From assembly GCF_000151315.2 (NCBI RefSeq), contig NW_011887294.1, forward strand, positions 1,694,460-1,758,459: 64,000 bases of DNA, written 5' to 3'. Positions 1,027-50,593 of the stretch are shown here, piece after piece. Below the pieces are notes generated by a model. That model worked only from the letters and a program-made list of their open reading frames with translations, ran no database searches and was not told the DNA's origin. The position numbers and the translations under genes are program-made. The stretch is from Capsaspora owczarzaki ATCC 30864. Lineage: Eukaryota > Opisthokonta > Filasterea. The stretch's first letter is position 1. Every line of letters begins with the position of its first letter.

Positions 1027-2656
1027 TCATCCGTTCGTGTTGCTCCTCCCTCTCACCAAGGCCCCCAAATCGCGAACTGAGCCTCTGGGTGGACGGAGCG
1101 GCTGGAGCAAACCCACACAATCGGCAAACGAAGGACGCGCAGAGGGATCCCATTCCCAGGTCGCCAACATTAGCGAGTAGAGCTGTGCAGGACAGGTGGG
1201 TGGTTGTGGCAAACGATCTCCGCGCTTCAGACCCACAAGGTACTGGTCCCGCTCGACATCCGCCCAAGGTGGCTGGCCCATTGTGAAGAGTTCCCCTAAT
1301 TTTCAAGTGCAAGCGTGAGCAACGAAACGTCGTGTTATTCACGAGTGCTTGTGGTTCATCACTCCGCCTTACAAAGCACAACACCATACGAAAATACGTC
1401 CGATTGGCTCGAGAATTTGCGGTAGTTGAGTGTTTCGGGTGCCATCCACTACGATGCACGAATCCGGTGAATACACAAGGACAAGAAACAACACAACCCA
1501 GACTCGACCATTCTCAATCAACCGACTTACGCGAACTGGCAGCTTTTGCTTTGACTGCAACTTGTAGTAGTCCTTGTCATTGAGCTCCCTGGATAGACCA
1601 AAGTCGGCAATCTTGGCCACCAGATGCGAGCCAACAAGGACATTGCGGGCGGCCAGATCACGATGAAGCACTCGTGCTTGCTCCAAATACCCCATGCCCG
1701 CAGCAATACCGGTGGCCACGTGAACATACTCTTCTGGCGACCAGGCAACATCGCACTTTGCCGACTGACGAAGCAGATTGCGCAAATCACCTGTACAGAG
1801 CATACAAGAATCGTAAGTGAGTGAGCGCCAACGAATTCCGCTACACCGCCTGGAGCTACGACTGTACATCAAGGACTTACCGTACGGTACATACTCTAGA
1901 ACGAGCATTTGCGGCTGACCTCGGCCAGCTGGAAGCACTGCGAGGACATTGACAATGTTGGTATGATTTAGCTTGCGCAAGAGCTCGGCTTCCAGCACAA
2001 AATCTTGCTCCGCTCGAGCATTGGCATCGAGTAGCAGAGTCTTGACGGCGACATCCACTGTCTGCGCGCCTGGTGCAAACAGATGACGATGCTGGGGAGC
2101 AATGAGGGCAATGGACACGTTCGCGGAAAACACTTGGCCAAAGTTGCCTCGTCCCAGCAGCTTGCGCGTGCCGGTGGCTATCTGCGACGACAACAGAGCA
2201 GCGGTTGACACCACTGCAATGCTGTACGCAGTTGAAGGGTCAACCGTTGTGGATGCAGGACCGCTGGTACTCTTGCTGGTTGCTTTGAGTGGTGTTGAGT
2301 AATCCGTGTTAGCGTTGCCTGAACCTGCTGGAACCGAGTGGGATGCCGAAGCAGGGCGGGACTTGTCTTGTTGAGTCTGACTGGCAACAACCTTGGCTGA
2401 ATCATTGGAGTTGTGCTTCTGACGGCCTGAAGCGACGCCTGGCGTGGTCATTTCAATGGTTGCAGGAGACTTGTCCATCCTGAGGTTGTTGCGGCTTCGC
2501 TTCCTTCGACGCACAATTAGAAGGACGGCCACGATCGCAATCAAAACGACGACGCCTGCTGCTGCGGCTCCAGCAGCTGCGGCGGCAGGGCTACTGCCAC
2601 CAGCGTTGTGAGCGCGAGAAGAAGAGCCTTCATCGCACGAATTGGTTTGCTGGTTG
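1027..2656 (-). CDS. Receptor tyrosine kinase, transmembrane and kinase part (5' end lost in assembly gap)
   Basis: Exons on the minus strand: 2656-1881, 1790-1531, 1448-1373, 1295-1027, each with GT-AG introns of 77-90 bases. After a short Ser-rich extracellular remnant comes one hydrophobic helix (GVVVLIAIVAVLLIV) with a basic stop-transfer RRRKRSR, then a Ser/Thr-rich juxtamembrane region and a complete kinase domain: glycine loop GRGNFGQVF, VAVK, hinge LEYVPYG, catalytic loop HRDLAARN, DFGLSRE, activation-loop KDYYK, then WMAPE across an intron. HRDLAARN plus WMAPE marks it as a tyrosine kinase, and all catalytic residues are present. The tail after the kinase is only about 25 residues. 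The ectodomain lies in or beyond the 100-N gap, so ligand and subfamily cannot be named. The 90-base intron 1791-1880 has no in-frame stop and could be misread as coding. Confidence 0.9.
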
Positions 2657-44845: not shown

Positions 44846-47800
44846 TTAGTCGACAAAAGTCTTGTTGTATGTGCCCTGGTGAAACGAGGTCGGAGGGACT
44901 CGGCAAATCATGCACTTGTCTTGACGTTGGATCATCCATTGAGCACACGCGACGCAGACACATGCGTGGCAGCACGGTATCAGCTTGGCATTCGTCGGGG
45001 CGTTGAAACAGACCAAGCACTCACGATCGCTGCCTGCAACTGTCTCTTCCTCGTTTTCTGCAACTTCTTCCCCCGAAAATCGTCTCAGGATTTCGCCGAA
45101 CGATGGTCGATAGACTCGTGCGGGATCGAGGCAATCAACCGCAAGATCCGCCATGGCTTGTGCAGCCTCTTTATCTTGACTGCTCCAGTCAATTGCTTTG
45201 TCAAGCACTGAATCGATTTTACGGCTCCTTTTCAGCTGGTGTCGAACGGTAGACATCAAGTCAATGCTGGGCCGCTGTCCAGTAGCGAGCTCAAGCAGAA
45301 TCATGCCGTACGAGTACACGTCCGTCTTGATGGAAACCTTGCCTTCATCGCGATACTGAGGGCAAATGTACTGAAGGGTGCCTTGAACCGTCTGCGTACG
45401 AATGTAGCTGTGTGCGTCCACCTGAGCCGGCATAGAGCGCGTCAGACCAAAATCGGCCACTTTGGCGTGAAAGTCAGCGTCCAGCAACACATTATCCGTC
45501 TTGAGGTCCAAGTGGAACAGCGGCTGCCGCGGAATGGCCGTCTGGACAAAGTGCATGGCGTTTGCAATATCAGTCGCAATGTTTTGGCGCTGCTGCCAAC
45601 TCAATGCGAGCGTGCCACCCCTGCGATCGAGACGATCGCGAACAGAACCGTTTGGCATCAGCTCGTAGACCAAGCAGCGCTCGTTGTCTTCCTGGGCATA
45701 GCACATGATGATGACGATATTCGGGTGACGGAAACGCGAGAGGGCTTCGAGTTCGGCCTCGAACTGAGCGGCGCCTTGGGTTGAATTCGCTGCCATGCGT
45801 TTGACAGCGACTTGCTGACCGTTCCAGACACCAGAGTAGACATTGCCAAAGCCGCCGCCTCCAATTTTCTTGGGATCTGCAAAATTGTCAGTCGCTTGAG
45901 AGAGGACTTGGAGATCAACGCGAAGAAGGTTGGGGCTGACGGATGGAGCAGAACTTGGGGGAGAAGCAGAACTTGGGGGAGCAGAACTTGGGGGAGAATG
46001 GCGCTCGAGCTCCAGCTGGGCCATGCGAGCTTGCAGTTGACGAATATCCTCGCGATTTGTCCCTGACTTGGAGTTGGGCATTCGCAATGTAGCAGGTTTG
46101 GGAGGACGAGGCGGAGGCGTTGATGGAGAAGGAGCATGGTGGGAACTTGGAGCATGGGCTCCTGGGACATCTTCAGTTGGAACGCTGGCCCATAGTGGCG
46201 CGTGAGTGGCGTGCAATTGAGCAGGTAACGTCCGACGCTGACTGTGAAAACTGATTTTGAATCCACACGTAAGTGCTGCGCTCCATCGGACTGTGAAGAA
46301 ACGCAATAATCCAGACTTACTCAGGTTGGCAGGCTCTGTTGCCGACTTGTTTCAAGGCGTTGATGGCACTTTCGGAAATGGAGTTCTCATCGAGACTAGA
46401 CGTTTCAGTATGTAGTTCTCAAAGTTTGAGCGACCAATACAAGCTTTGAAATTCTGCAGCAAAGGTTAAATTACATGAGCAGAATCAGCCTCTTGTTGAC
46501 CTTGAGTGCCTCGGCAATCGCCTGCGCTCCAGCGTCGCCAATCTGATTCTCATTCAGACTGTCCATCCCTCCATCAGTGAGCGCGGAGTTTTATCTGCAG
46601 GATCAAGCACTCACATGCTTTAGTCAAACGTACAAGAGCGTGTCCAGCTTCTTGTTCACTTTGAGAGCTTCAGCAATCGCCTGTGCTCCAGCATCGCCAA
46701 TCTGGTTTCGGCCCAGACTGTCCATATCCCTCCATGAATGAGCACTCATATTGCCTTCTGTGGAATCAAAAACTCGCATGCATCGACTGAAGAGAAATGT
46801 CCTACCCGAGTGTCGTCAGCGTCGTGTTCACTTTGAGTGCCTCAGCTATTGTCTGTGCTCCAGCATCGCTAATTTGAACATGTTGCAGACTGTGCGTTCT
46901 CCATCAGTGAGCACTGAAACATATCTGCTGGATCACCACTCCGACGCATCAAAGTCAAAGAGATTGTGCCTTACTTGAGCCCAGTTATCGTCGTGTTCAC
47001 TTTGAGCGCTTGTGCAATGGCCTGCGCTCCAGCGTTGCCAATCTGATTATCACCCAAACTGTTGGTACTTCCGTCAGTGAGCCTGTCTGACCTTGCTGCA
47101 CAACTCCAATATGTCGTCAAAGTCAAAGGCGTTACTTGAGTGTGGTCACTGTCGTGTTCACCTTGAGTGCCTCAGCGATCGCCTGCGCGCCAACATCGCC
47201 AATCTGGTTGAAGTCGAGGCTGTTCACCCAGTCCATCAGTGAACACTCTGAATACCTCTGCTAAATCACCCACTGACTTTGTCAATAGCCGTACCCAAGC
47301 CAACTCAAATTCTTGTTCAATTTGAGAGCTTGAGCAATCGCCTGCGCTTCAGCATCGCCAATCCTATCCAACTGCAAACTGTCTTCACTTTGTCAACACC
47401 AGCGGCGTATGTCACACCTTCCCATAAATACGGTTGTGTCTTACTTGAGCGACCCACTTGCAAGCTTGACTTTGCGAAACAACTCGCTTTGTCTCAGAGT
47501 CGTACTCTGAGCTACTTGCGGACCTTCGGGTTGCAACTCTCGGTTTGCAACGCTGGCCCGGGCTTGCCCATTAGTGCCACTAGCCGCCACCGCTTGCAGT
47601 TCAGCAGGCGAAGGCGTACGCTGGTTGTTCACCCTGTTCGAAAATCACACACAAGTAAGCGCTGCGTTCCATCAGGTTGATGCAACAGTTCAGAGTTACC
47701 GCAGGGTGCGTTTCTTGTTGCTGAACTTGTCCAAGGCCTTGGCCTTGTACTCACGGGCGGAAATGATGTTGTCTTCAAGACTGGAAATTTCAGTGACGTA

Positions 47801-49245
47801 GTTCTCAAGTTCGGGTGAGAAAGCAGAAACGTTTGGAACAATGCAGCAAGAGTCCACGTACTTGAGCGTAGTCAGCGTCTTGTTGATGTTGAACGCCTCA
47901 GCAATCATTTGCGCACCAGCATCCGCAATGGCATTCTGACTCAGACTGTCCATCCCCGCTATCAGTGAGCACTCCGAATGTCCTCAGATAGCACCTATTC
48001 ACACGCATCAGTCAAGGGGAGTTGACGTACTTGAGCTCAGTCAGGGTCGTGTTCACCCTGAGTGCCTCAGCAATCGCTGTCGCTCCTGCATTGCCAAACT
48101 GATTCTTTTCCAAACTGTTTGTCCGTGAGTACTCTGAATGCCGCCTGCTGAAACCACTCGCTCACAAGCATCAACAAACGAGATGCCTTACATGAGTGTC
48201 GTCAGCGTTGAGTTCACTTCGAGTGCATCAGCAATCGCCTGCGCTCCAGCATCGCCAATCTGATTTCGAAAAAAACTGTCCGTCCTCCACTAGTGAGCAA
48301 TCTGAATGCCCTCTGCCTTTCACTCGATTACAAGCATCGGTCAAGGTGAGATGACTTACTAGAGCTCAGTCAAGGTGTTGTTCACTTTGAGTGAATCAGC
48401 AATCGCCTGCGCCCCGGTACTACCAATCGGATTGCGGCCAAGACTGTCCAACCCCTTCATTAGTGAGCACGCTGAATGCCCCTCCGCTGAAGCCACCCCA
48501 CACTCAGATTAGTCAAAGTGAGATGACTTACTAGAGCATTTCCAGCGTCGTGTTCACCTTGAGTGCGTTGGCAATCGCTTGCCCTCCAGCATCGCCAATC
48601 TGATTCTCGACCAAACTGCCCGTCCCCTCTCCGTCAATGAGCTATGCTGAAAATCACACCCCCCTCTCACACGCATTAGTCGAAGTGAGATGCCTTACTT
48701 GAGCGAGGTCAGCCTCTTGTTCACTTTGAGCGCCTCAGCAATCGCGAGCGCACCGGCATCTCCAATGTGATTATCACTCAGACTGTCCATCCCCTCCTTC
48801 AGTGAGCACTCTCAATGTCCTTTGCTGAATCATCCACTCACATGCATCAATCAAGGTGAAATGCCGTACTAGAGCCCGGTCAGTGTCTTGTTCACTTTGA
48901 GAGCTTCAGCAAGTGCCTGCGCTCCAGCACTGCCAATCCGGTTGTTGTCGAGCCTGTTCATTCCCTCCATCAGTGAGCACTCTGAATGTCTATGAATCAG
49001 CTACTACATCCATCAGTCAAAAGTGAGATGACTTACATGAGCACCGTCACCGTCACGTTCACTTTGAATGCCTGTGCGATTGCCTGTGCTTCAGCATCGC
49101 CAATCTGCTTGCCACACAAACTAGACCCATCCTGTCAACTCACACACGTCGCCACGTTTCCCACCATAAGCTCAGCTTTCTCTTACTCGTGCCATCCACC
49201 TGCAATATTGACTTTGTCATGCAACTCTCGCTGCCTCTCAGTCAT
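44846..49245 (-). CDS. LRR - non-RD kinase - RING finger protein, with two LRR arrays
   Basis: Nineteen exons on the minus strand: 49245-49187; eight 84-base LRR exons starting at 49120, 48953, 48782, 48615, 48443, 48275, 48114, 47945; 47780-47700; 47633-47445; six more LRR exons starting at 47378, 47219, 47058, 46889, 46718, 46559; 46395-46321; 46250-44846. Total 994 residues. Each LRR is 28 residues of ribonuclease-inhibitor/NLR type (NQIGDAGAQAIAEALKVNK). Kinase: GGGGFGNVY (~657), VAVK (~677), HLDLKTDN (~773, Arg of HRD replaced by Leu), DFGLT (~793), TKL/IRAK-like. C-terminal RING CLVC...CCHACVCVAC...CMIC (~945-985), cIAP-like. No signal peptide or membrane helix, so cytosolic. By layout it could be a sensor with kinase and ubiquitin-ligase outputs; that is inference. 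The acceptor at 46251 has an in-frame alternative 9 bases on. Confidence 0.85.
46476..49120 (-). repeat. Tandem array of LRR exon-intron units, period 160-172 bases
   Basis: Fourteen units, each an 84-base exon plus an intron of about 75-88 bases, in two blocks (49120-47862 and 47378-46476). The introns resemble each other as well (recurring CCATCAGTGAGCACTCTGAAT and GTCAAAGTGAGATG on the plus strand), so exon and intron spread together as one unit, and fairly recently. Not a CRISPR array: the repeats are coding and far too long and varied. Confidence 0.93.
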
Positions 49246-50593
49246 TCGCTGATACGACAGCATTGGAAGATCTTGACAAAATTGAAAACAAGGACTAGAT
49301 CTTCAATCTCGATCCCATCTTCGGCTCAACTCTTTCCCGAATTATGCTCGGCATTCATGCTCATAGTCAGTGAGCAAACGTGGCGGGTTGAAAAAGGACC
49401 GGGCATGCATTGAATGGATTTGTTTGTGGAAAGCAGCGAAACACTGAGTTTTTCCATTTCCATGCTTTCGCTGTCAGACTCCGTTCTCCTGCTTTTTGGA
49501 CAAACTCCTTGGTGGTTTTACGATCCGTGTTTGCTGAGACTTTGACATTTGTATTTGCAATGAACTCGCTTTTGGTCTTGTTTAAGAACGCTTTTCATTC
49601 TCATTTTTTGACTTCTTATTTTCCTTTCAACACATATACAAAATGCGTCCTGGTAAATGATTTTATTTATACGATTGCCTCATCACGCTTGCCACCCTTT
49701 TCTTGCCTTACTATCTCACTTTAGTGAGCTCCCACTTTTTTCCATGTTTTTTCATCTTTTTTGTCTTCTGAATCCTTTTTGTCCCTTTTGCCTCTTTGAG
49801 CCCGGATTTCTTCCCGGATCCACACGCATCTTGACGAATCGCACAGCCAGCGACAGAGGCAGAGTGAACCTCGAGGGGAAGGGGTGGTTGGGCGCACTGT
49901 GCAGCACCATTGAAACGAGCACATGGAAAAGAAAAGAAAGAAAAGAAAAAAAAATCGGATTTTTTTTCTTTGATCTCGAAAGCCAACGAGCTGCGTGAAA
50001 AGGCGATGCAGGGCGGCTCGAACAGCAGACAAGTGGCGACAAACGACCAAAGGGCCGCAGTCGCACAGCATGGAGCAGAACGCCGACGCACTGCACTGCG
50101 GGAAGCGCGGCTTTCTGTTCGACCGCAGAAGAGCGAAAAAAACAAAAAAAAAAAAAAAGGCCCACACATGGTCGGTGCTGCTGTGATGTCGTTCGTCTCG
50201 GAAGCGCAGGACGACAGCCAACCACCAGCGCAAATGTCGTGCTGTGATTGTGTGTTGCTCGTGTGGGCGATCGACGAGCTGTTCAGTCAAAGACAACGAC
50301 GCGATCGCAAGCAAAAAAAAAAAGAAAAAAAAAAGAAACAAAAAAAACCCATGTGGCTTGAAAAAAAAAAAAAAAAAGAAGGAAAAAAAAGACAAAGTCA
50401 AGGGGAAAGTCATGTCGAAGATCAGCAGACTTTGGATGTAGAGCAAGATCTAGACAAAGATCAAGTGCTGGGATTAGAAGCAGCAACATGATCAGCGGAA
50501 GAGTCGGCTTGAAGCAGTGATGGTTGATGCAAGACGACTTGTAACTCACTTTTGATCCTTCCACCCTGTTTTTTCATTTGCGTGCTCACAGGC
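49246..50593. promoter_or_regulatory. Divergent intergenic region, LRR-kinase gene and fibrillarin
   Basis: 1.35 kb. T-rich in the first half, then A-rich with AAAAAG/AAAAAAG runs (49920-50400). These give long open frames of Lys/Phe on either strand that I treat as noise. A possible splice acceptor (GTGCTCACAG at about 50582-50591) just before the fibrillarin ATG hints at a 5' UTR intron. No coding exon is supported. Confidence 0.45.

Follow-up and report, generated by a model that had tools for sequence, protein, structure and literature searches.

An LRR-kinase-RING gene family of Capsaspora owczarzaki built from exon cassettes: candidate soluble recognition receptors

Described systems with LRR exons, kinases or RING fingers

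Candidate immune receptors of brown algae belonging to the ROCO type (LRR-ROC-COR) have one leucine-rich repeat (LRR) per exon, all in phase 2, undergo exon shuffling and, in the portion of the source consulted, are reported to be under positive selection at four concave positions, sites 14, 16, 18 and 19 (PMC11378527). The gene studied here lies in the window, i.e., the whole stretch of 64,000 nucleotides of C. owczarzaki DNA that was analysed, and shares with these receptors the one-LRR-per-exon organization, the single intron phase and the exchange of LRR exons between genes. The four algal sites, as given in that portion, can be read as positions 26, 28, 2 and 3 of our repeats, that is, as the same x residues of xLxLxxN. 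The algal exons differ in being 72 bp long and in encoding another LRR subtype, as compared to 84 nt here; a kinase-RING tail is not mentioned in the same portion of the source (PMC11378527), and COR is one of several heads in the family of the window gene.

LRR genes of Tetrahymena consist of tandem exons with a fixed length of 90 bp and an extreme phase-2 bias, exchange sequence with one another and are in some cases fused to protein kinases (PMC6564038, partial text). Tandem equal-length phase-2 exons, exchange and kinase fusions are therefore features that they have in common with the window family. The 90-bp exons and the number of genes, which is in the thousands, set them apart, and the partial text mentions neither a kinase-RING tail nor selection at concave sites. 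The kinase-TLRs and kinase-TIRs of choanoflagellates combine a kinase with a TIR domain and may or may not also carry LRRs and a membrane helix (PMC6040629, partial text). To judge from that text, they resemble the window protein in that a putative receptor of a unicellular animal relative bears its own kinase, whereas the window protein has LRRs and a RING finger and no TIR domain. LRSAM1 carries LRRs and a C-terminal RING finger in one cytosolic protein; it has no kinase, and its LRR class differs from that of the window protein. Among the titles and abstract openings listed by literature searches, in a collection with few subscription papers, none describes the present family.

Gene structure and domains of the window protein

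Manual splicing of the minus-strand gene (49245..44846) gave 19 exons in an unbroken frame, separated by 18 GT-AG introns that are all in phase 2, in agreement with the single frame proposed by the first-pass annotation. Fourteen exons measure exactly 84 nt and encode one 28-residue LRR each, eight in array 1 and six in array 2; the other exons (cap, tail, linker) are placed before, between and after the arrays. Two in-frame ATGs, at 49263 and 49245, are available. Since the models of type-A paralogues open in a similar way (MNQRQRELYDEVKN, MTKRQRELYDKVKN and alike), 49245, at which the first-pass annotation also ended the gene, is the likelier start codon, keeping in mind that the script picks the ATG closest to the first intron in those models. 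The features are as follows.

49187..49245, minus: exon 1, from the likelier ATG at 49245, N-terminal cap MTERQRELHDKVNIAGGWH together with the leading two bases of the following codon (manual splicing, paralogue starts)
49037..49120, minus: exon 2, array 1 LRR 1 (84 nt)
48870..48953, minus: exon 3, array 1 LRR 2
48699..48782, minus: exon 4, array 1 LRR 3
48532..48615, minus: exon 5, array 1 LRR 4
48360..48443, minus: exon 6, array 1 LRR 5
48192..48275, minus: exon 7, array 1 LRR 6
48031..48114, minus: exon 8, array 1 LRR 7
47862..47945, minus: exon 9, array 1 LRR 8
47700..47780, minus: exon 10, array 1 C-terminal cap
47445..47633, minus: exon 11, linker and array 2 N-terminal cap
47295..47378, minus: exon 12, array 2 LRR 1
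47136..47219, minus: exon 13, array 2 LRR 2
46975..47058, minus: exon 14, array 2 LRR 3
46806..46889, minus: exon 15, array 2 LRR 4
46634..46717, minus: exon 16, array 2 LRR 5
46475..46558, minus: exon 17, array 2 LRR 6
46321..46395, minus: exon 18, array 2 C-terminal cap
44846..46241, minus: exon 19, Pro/Ser-rich linker, kinase, RING finger and stop
45083..45874, minus: kinase domain, residues 656-919, with VAVK, HLDLKTDN and DFG intact
44888..45028, minus: RING finger zf-C3HC4_3, residues 938-984, Arg following the last Cys
44846..44887, minus: C-terminal tail, ending GTYNKTFVD, and stop

The Pfam scan, run on the 997-aa reading of the gene, detected LRR_6 (E 7.6e-67), Pkinase (residues 656-919, E 9.2e-42) and zf-C3HC4_3 (residues 938-984, E 4.1e-10, 39.7 bits as compared to a cut-off of 27). 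The repeats are of the ribonuclease inhibitor (RI) type, with ribonuclease inhibitor and NLRP3 among the closest solved structures, together with a protein which we take to be NOD2. The kinase is of the IRAK/RLK type, its closest PDB entries being SYMRK (E 1.4e-48), BAK1, BRI1 and IRAK4 (E 4.5e-43), and has a non-RD loop (HLDLK). The RING finger has the spacing C-x2-C-x11-C-x-H-x3-C-x2-C-x10-C-x2-C and shows the hallmarks of a RING E3, namely the C3HC4 zinc ligands and an Arg past the last Cys. The two RI-type arrays, the complete IRAK-like kinase and the finger pattern of the first-pass annotation are thus borne out. Its "cIAP-like" label holds as a name for the type of RING, and not as a relationship, because MGRN1, CGRRF1, a herpesvirus RING and MEX3C are closer in sequence than cIAP1/2 and the BIR domain is missing.

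No membrane helix is apparent, as had been proposed: no 19-residue Kyte-Doolittle window reaches 1.6, and the maximum, 1.49, falls within the RING finger. The protein is likely soluble and cytosolic. In the Pfam scan of the whole protein no NACHT or NB-ARC, TIR, Death or BIR domain was found, nor was ROC-COR, so that the order ROC-COR-kinase does not occur. NLRs (NOD2, NLRP3) have RI-type LRRs in common with the window protein, which is not one of them since NACHT/NB-ARC is missing; the lack of a TIR domain and of an apparent transmembrane helix likewise excludes a Toll-like receptor. IRAK and plant receptor-like kinases have a similar kinase, but the window protein has no N-terminal Death domain and no apparent transmembrane helix, is non-RD and adds a RING finger; membership of the IRAKs was rejected, although the kinase type fits. 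Without BIR domains, it is not an IAP (cIAP) either.

The family and the exchange of its parts

The first-pass annotation described one protein and proposed a count of its paralogues. The protein is no isolated oddity: kinase and RING are adjacent and uninterrupted in 22 of 114 genome matches, and the window gene is one member of a large family. Among 28 tabulated kinase loci, 21 have a RING finger, and in 14 of these (the window gene and 13 others) it stands behind LRRs, so that the proposed succession of LRRs, kinase and RING in one chain recurs. The motifs VA(V/I)K, HLDLKxxN and DFG are retained in 27 of the 28 kinases; the Arg after the last Cys, as well as TFV or TYV close to the C-terminus, is kept in 20 of the 21 tabulated RING-bearing loci. 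A gene-prediction artefact fusing two genes is unlikely because the order recurs at the 13 other tabulated loci, for seven of which a script returned a full spliced model, and the 22 uninterrupted matches rule out a one-off fusion. Taken together with the regularity of the exons, these copies exclude a chance origin of the architecture.

The paralogue models come from a script and their linkers are doubtful in places, whereas the window gene was spliced manually. For L016 and L018 the script stopped short of a complete model; inspected by eye, L016 has a repeat of 81 nt and L018 an LRR exon that appears frameshifted. L034 and L035, for which another script gave no frame, are outside all counts of 28; L035 has a kinase-RING match of 47% identity and five LRR-like exons upstream.

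Other heads on family kinases are COR (ROCO-type), SH2-like and coiled-coil-like, and triple-kinase genes also occur. In L025, COR-A, COR-B and the kinase were identified by Pfam and the Roc part by eye only, while the COR heads of L030, L032 and L033 were assigned by resemblance. An undescribed tail of ~175 residues, present in 97 near-full copies, may draw on the same LRR exon pool. The LRR-A query matches at least 220 places in the genome (150 of 1292 candidates scored).

LRR exons with 95-100% identity were found in different genes, in one case (a near-identical pair) on kinases merely 53% alike; the window gene's own LRR exons have best outside matches of 72-86%. Type-A repeats are as similar within a gene (0.739) as between genes (0.745), and introns show ~57% identity both within and between genes in one multiple alignment, the pairwise intron alignments, which were filtered for similarity, having higher identities. 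In the kinase tree, head types are interspersed, and the window kinase pairs as sister with that of an SH2-kinase-RING gene (99/93); many forks of the tree are unresolved, with 12 of 25 inner branches open in the drawing. By these sequence comparisons, LRR pieces are exchanged among family genes as exon cassettes.

Searches of the organism's own genome with the PF13516 (LRR_6) and PF00554 (RHD) profiles gave 0 matches, which is weak evidence since the controls were likewise empty. NF-kappaB is reported in Capsaspora (PMC9621439, partial text), and the empty RHD search may reflect insensitivity to introns. Over the cut-offs, the genome contains four NACHT matches (best E 1.6e-8) and four TIR matches (best E 5.0e-6), and its T-box matches fit the proposed host, a single-celled organism related to animals. 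A search of phage records yielded 23 weak matches to the kinase, of which 0 reach 80% query coverage.

Selection and proposed function

The highest codon variability was observed at the four concave positions of xLxLxxN, with entropy maxima at repeat positions 2, 3 and 26; at codon 28, which is split by the intron, the nonsynonymous count is also high. The main test compared the four concave codons of 69 cleaned type-A units from 12 genes after strict sorting, mostly without matching the position of the repeats. The concave pN/pS was 1.75 (bootstrap 1.26-2.94) in 684 pairs with introns >80% identical and 1.45 over all 1377 pairs with alignable introns, so the choice of similar-intron pairs increases the ratio; the remaining type-A codons gave 0.43-0.44. 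The first sorting, which left some B-like units among type A, had given 1.53 (1.13-2.48) with three codons, and the result held under the stricter one. The pooled test (p 0.0034) counts changes as independent events even though the exons recombine; singly, the concave codons are marginal or non-significant against their own synonymous changes (p 0.027-0.67). Pooled type-B repeats give no such excess when measured against their own synonymous changes (ratios 0.71-0.94), and a single codon, position 3 of B1, reaches p 0.015-0.032; signs of diversifying selection are therefore confined to type A, whose recognition pieces appear to be selected for variety. The kinase-RING tail, with a median dN/dS of 0.175 (range 0.119-0.237; 55 pairs, 11 genes), is under strong purifying selection.

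These values bear on the quite improbable alternative that LRR exons and introns are amplified mostly neutrally through ectopic recombination, as proposed for the Tetrahymena genes, with incidental kinase fusions. The 220 or more LRR-A places (150 of 1292 candidates scored), the equal type-A identity within and between genes and the seemingly frameshifted exon of L018 are what it would predict, yet the kinase-RING tail is strongly purified, and the scaffold is conserved (pN/pS 0.43 for the rest) while type-A concave positions exceed neutrality. It is unlikely, though less so, that the proteins are E3 ligases or kinase scaffolds whose arches select endogenous substrates like F-box-LRR proteins, the variety corresponding to many substrates and not to foreign or non-self ligands. 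Type-B repeats, without excess, fit this better, and it is favoured by the conserved RING and C-terminal tail (20 of 21) and by the sharing of the kinase-RING tail by COR, SH2-like and coiled-coil-like heads, as for a general signalling tail; however, concave residues would then normally be preserved, and the type-A ones outpace synonymous sites.

On balance we lean slightly towards a soluble recognition receptor from an exon-shuffled family, with kinase and E3 output. The two RI-type arches, with one repeat per phase-2 exon, would bind a ligand through concave beta-sheet residues; binding would release or cluster the non-RD IRAK/RLK-type kinase, which would phosphorylate partners, and the RING finger would ubiquitinate these partners or the receptor itself. 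The cytosolic location, the ligand binding, both enzyme activities and the order of events are predicted. The suggestion of the first-pass annotation that one protein could sense, phosphorylate and ubiquitinate is retained as such, and the ligands may come from microbes or viruses, as in innate immunity, and not be self or symbiont cues. Recognition of self or kin, for instance in aggregation, appears very unlikely: Capsaspora does form aggregates and diversified LRR families could serve either task, but neither a signal peptide nor a membrane helix is apparent in the window protein, so a role at the cell surface would require a partner.

A wider interpretation of the receptor model can be offered only tentatively. 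A close unicellular relative of animals would have germline-diversified recognition independent of TLRs and NLRs, in which one LRR exon pool serves at least three output classes (kinase-RING, kinase and the ~175-residue tail), the kinase-RING tail is recombined with other heads, and one chain senses, phosphorylates and ubiquitinates. If so, this would be the third case of exon-cassette LRR diversification, after brown algae and ciliates; the nearest animal-side case, gonadotropin receptors with phase-2 LRR exons, is not described as a shuffled family in the portion of the source consulted (PMC11378527). Because the conserved tail separates from the variable concave face, the prediction is directly testable. 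According to the partial text of a review of basal immunity, Capsaspora has NF-kappaB and no obvious TLR (PMC9621439); the LRR-kinase-RING family is a concrete candidate for its means of recognizing microbes. The kinase-RING tail, if the interpretation is correct, would be a natural one-chain form of steps that are split across several proteins in animals.

Domain structure and paralogues of the LRR-kinase-RING gene

Two kinase-containing features lie on the minus strand of the window:
49245..44846, minus strand: LRR-kinase-RING gene (L009, hereafter the window gene)
1531-2166, minus strand: second PF07714 kinase match, separate from the window gene

Splicing by hand gave the window gene an open frame of 19 exons with 18 GT-AG introns, all in phase 2. 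Fourteen exons are exactly 84 nt long; every one of them corresponds to a single LRR of 28 residues, eight forming the first array and six the second. In the Pfam scan, LRR_6, kinase and C3HC4 RING domains each scored over their cut-offs. The nearest solved structures by sequence were the ribonuclease-inhibitor (RI)-like protein of 9y6s, ribonuclease inhibitor, the 5irm chains (which we take to be NOD2) and NLRP3 for the LRRs, SYMRK, BAK1, BRI1 and IRAK4 for the kinase, and MGRN1, CGRRF1, a herpesvirus RING and MEX3C, then cIAP1/2, for the RING. Splicing, Pfam and these structures confirm the first-pass annotation, which had read RI-type LRR arrays, a kinase and a RING in one 19-exon frame; its term cIAP-like for the RING holds as a description of type, the four other RINGs ranking nearer than cIAP1/2. 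It had also seen no membrane helix, and the hydropathy scan agrees, since the peak window of the protein lies inside the RING and under the usual membrane threshold.

The genome (27.46 Mb, 29 contigs) was searched exon by exon, and only the best candidates were scored, so that gene counts are lower bounds. A 364-aa kinase-RING query gave at least 114 matches, 22 of which, the window gene included, span query residue 12 or lower to 362 or higher. Among the paralogues, the 14 best have identities of 79-86%. The PK_Tyr_Ser-Thr family gave 176 matches and T-box six pieces on two contigs, a gene content in keeping with a filasterean such as Capsaspora owczarzaki; the RHD family search, working exon by exon, gave 0 matches, which lends that assignment no support, and its controls were equally empty.

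The table of kinase loci has 28 entries, L009-L033 and L036-L038 (L034 and L035, without a frame in the script, were left out). The motifs VA(V/I)K, HLDLKxxN and DFG are kept in all except L033, in which HxDxKxxN and DFG are missing and which has the look of a pseudokinase. A RING follows in the kinase frame at 21 loci, and in 20 of these (exception L032) the last Cys is followed by Arg and TFV or TYV stands near the C-terminus.

Heads and shared LRR exons

The LRR repeats fall into two types. Type A is a single repeated unit (LxxNQIGDAGAQAIAEALKVNTTLTxL), whereas type B alternates two (B1, MxxNQIGDAGAQAIGSALRNKANLSxL; B2, LxxNKIGDIGARAIAEGLQTSTALTxL). These arrays and other domains form the heads that precede the kinase(-RING) tail.

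Heads at the 28 tabulated kinase loci. The Pfam scan of paralogues covered L025, L017 and L028; L030, L032 and L033 were assigned by resemblance to L025.
RING, LRR type A: 6 loci (L009, the window gene; L010, L011, L015, L018, L020)
RING, LRR type B: 8 loci (L012-L014, L016, L019, L021-L023)
RING, COR or COR-like: 3 loci (L025, L030, L032)
RING, SH2-like: 2 loci (L017, 22.2 bits vs Pfam cut-off 21; L026, resemblance only, by eye)
RING, coiled-coil-like: 1 locus (L029, by eye)
RING, head unknown: 1 locus (L024)
No RING, LRR type B: L027, L031
No RING, LRR type A: L036-L038
No RING, three kinases in a row: L028 (Pfam)
No RING, COR-like: L033

The four loci with COR or COR-like heads have an LRRK-like order, and L025 carries two RINGs; LRR-A exons precede this head in L025 and L030. 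The three kinases of L028 lie in a single open frame, upstream of which there is an LRR-A exon. The kinase tree has 28 rows and 25 inner branches, 12 of these being open. On it, type-A and type-B heads require 7 changes each, at least 3 of them forced by starred branches, and SH2 and COR heads 2 each. All seven head labels together take 12 changes, where shuffling gives a mean of 15.3 (0/200 as low); heads are therefore partly clustered, yet have been exchanged repeatedly. The closest branch to the window kinase, its sister, is that of the SH2 gene L017 (support 99/93).

LRR exons are common to different genes. By design of the scan, a counted unit is an exon of 84 nt flanked by AG and by GT or GC; units of 81 and 87 nt were also seen by eye. 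Repeat 7 of L037 and repeat 6 of L038 are identical across 84 compared bases, as are the second repeats of L013 and L014. The second repeats of L020 and L038 are 95% identical and their flanking intron ends 93%, the kinases being 53% identical and the RING present in L020 only. Repeats of the window gene reach 72-86% with their best outside matches. Type A identity is 0.739 within and 0.745 between genes (70 units, 12 genes; 429/500 shuffles as high), and the best match lies outside the unit's own gene for 59 units, inside for 5 and is tied for 5. Identity is higher within genes for B2 (0.805 vs 0.773; 0/500 shuffles as high) and weakly so for B1 (37/500).

Intron ends flanking LRR units are more than 80% identical in 629 pairs among 138 units, and may be recombination sites. 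One LRR exon of L018 seems frameshifted by eye; skipping it would preserve the frame, since every LRR exon is bounded by phase-2 introns. L021 has seven type-B repeats before its kinase, and the LRR-A-like exons after it apparently belong to a neighbouring LRR gene. A three-repeat LRR-A query hit at least 220 places, from 150 of 1292 candidates scored, and the cassette pool looks far bigger than the kinase family. In eight LRR-A arrays, chosen from plus-strand matches and not at random, a tail of about 175 residues lies downstream in seven (L055-L060, L062) and a 36-residue piece of it in L061. A genome search with this tail gave 128 matches, and 97 of them extend over 157 or more of its 174 residues. 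Of two proteins put through Pfam, one had a sub-threshold NifQ (20.3 bits vs 27), the sole match, and the PDB gave no significant one (best E 0.4).

Tests of selection on the repeats and on the kinase-RING tail

The x of xLxLxxN, repeat positions 26, 28, 2 and 3, lines the concave face in LRR structures. The variable positions of the family are these x, which would place them on that face by analogy with LRR structures generally. Type A entropy is 3.4-3.8 bits at positions 2, 3 and 26 and 2.43 at the next most variable one (85 units from a rough sorting rule, some B-like units included). For 505 pairs with introns more than 80% identical (18 stretches), pN/pS was 1.53 at codons 2, 3 and 26 (bootstrap 1.13-2.48) and 0.46 elsewhere. 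A stricter type A set (69 units, 12 genes; 684 such pairs), with the intron-spanning codon 28 added, agrees: 1.75 (1.26-2.94) vs 0.43 (0.38-0.51) for the rest, with dN at the four concave codons over all-site dS of 3.38 (2.76-4.25). With all alignable-intron pairs of this set (1377/2346) the values were 1.45 and 0.44. On a tree for which introns were the sole input (87 units, 16 genes), the four positions showed 351 nonsynonymous and 64 synonymous changes (expected nonsynonymous share 0.79, p 0.0034); taken singly, their excess was marginal or non-significant. Type B concave positions are variable as well; pooled, their nonsynonymous changes are not in excess relative to the synonymous changes at the same positions. 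The kinase-RING dN/dS was 0.119-0.237, median 0.175 (55 pairs from 11 of 15 genes, those caught by the script).

Known relatives and proposed working

In the portions of the literature consulted, the LRR exons of brown-algal ROCO genes are 72 bp long and undergo shuffling, and four positions of the concave face are under selection, the x of xLxLxxN being stated to line this face (PMC11378527); in Tetrahymena, genes with 90-bp LRR exons number in the thousands, some kinase-fused (PMC6564038), and choanoflagellates have kinase-TLRs (PMC6040629). LRR exons are phase 2 in brown algae, Tetrahymena and the window gene, where they measure 84 nt. The words LRR, leucine-rich and RING are absent from the main text of a unicellular holozoan genome study (PMC5560861), and LRR and leucine-rich from PMC8001218. 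Those same portions describe neither LRR-kinase-RING genes nor a single kinase-RING tail on several heads.

The kinase loop of the family, HLDLK, is of the non-RD type that several receptor kinases of immunity share. Its RING keeps the Arg and hydrophobic C-terminal tail; in IAP and MDM2 RINGs such a tail supports dimerisation. Judged from sequence, the family would bear the usual mark of recognition proteins, a variable LRR face with a conserved output. For the steps beyond this, we infer that the protein most likely acts as a receptor which, once clustered by a ligand, would phosphorylate and ubiquitinate itself and its partners.
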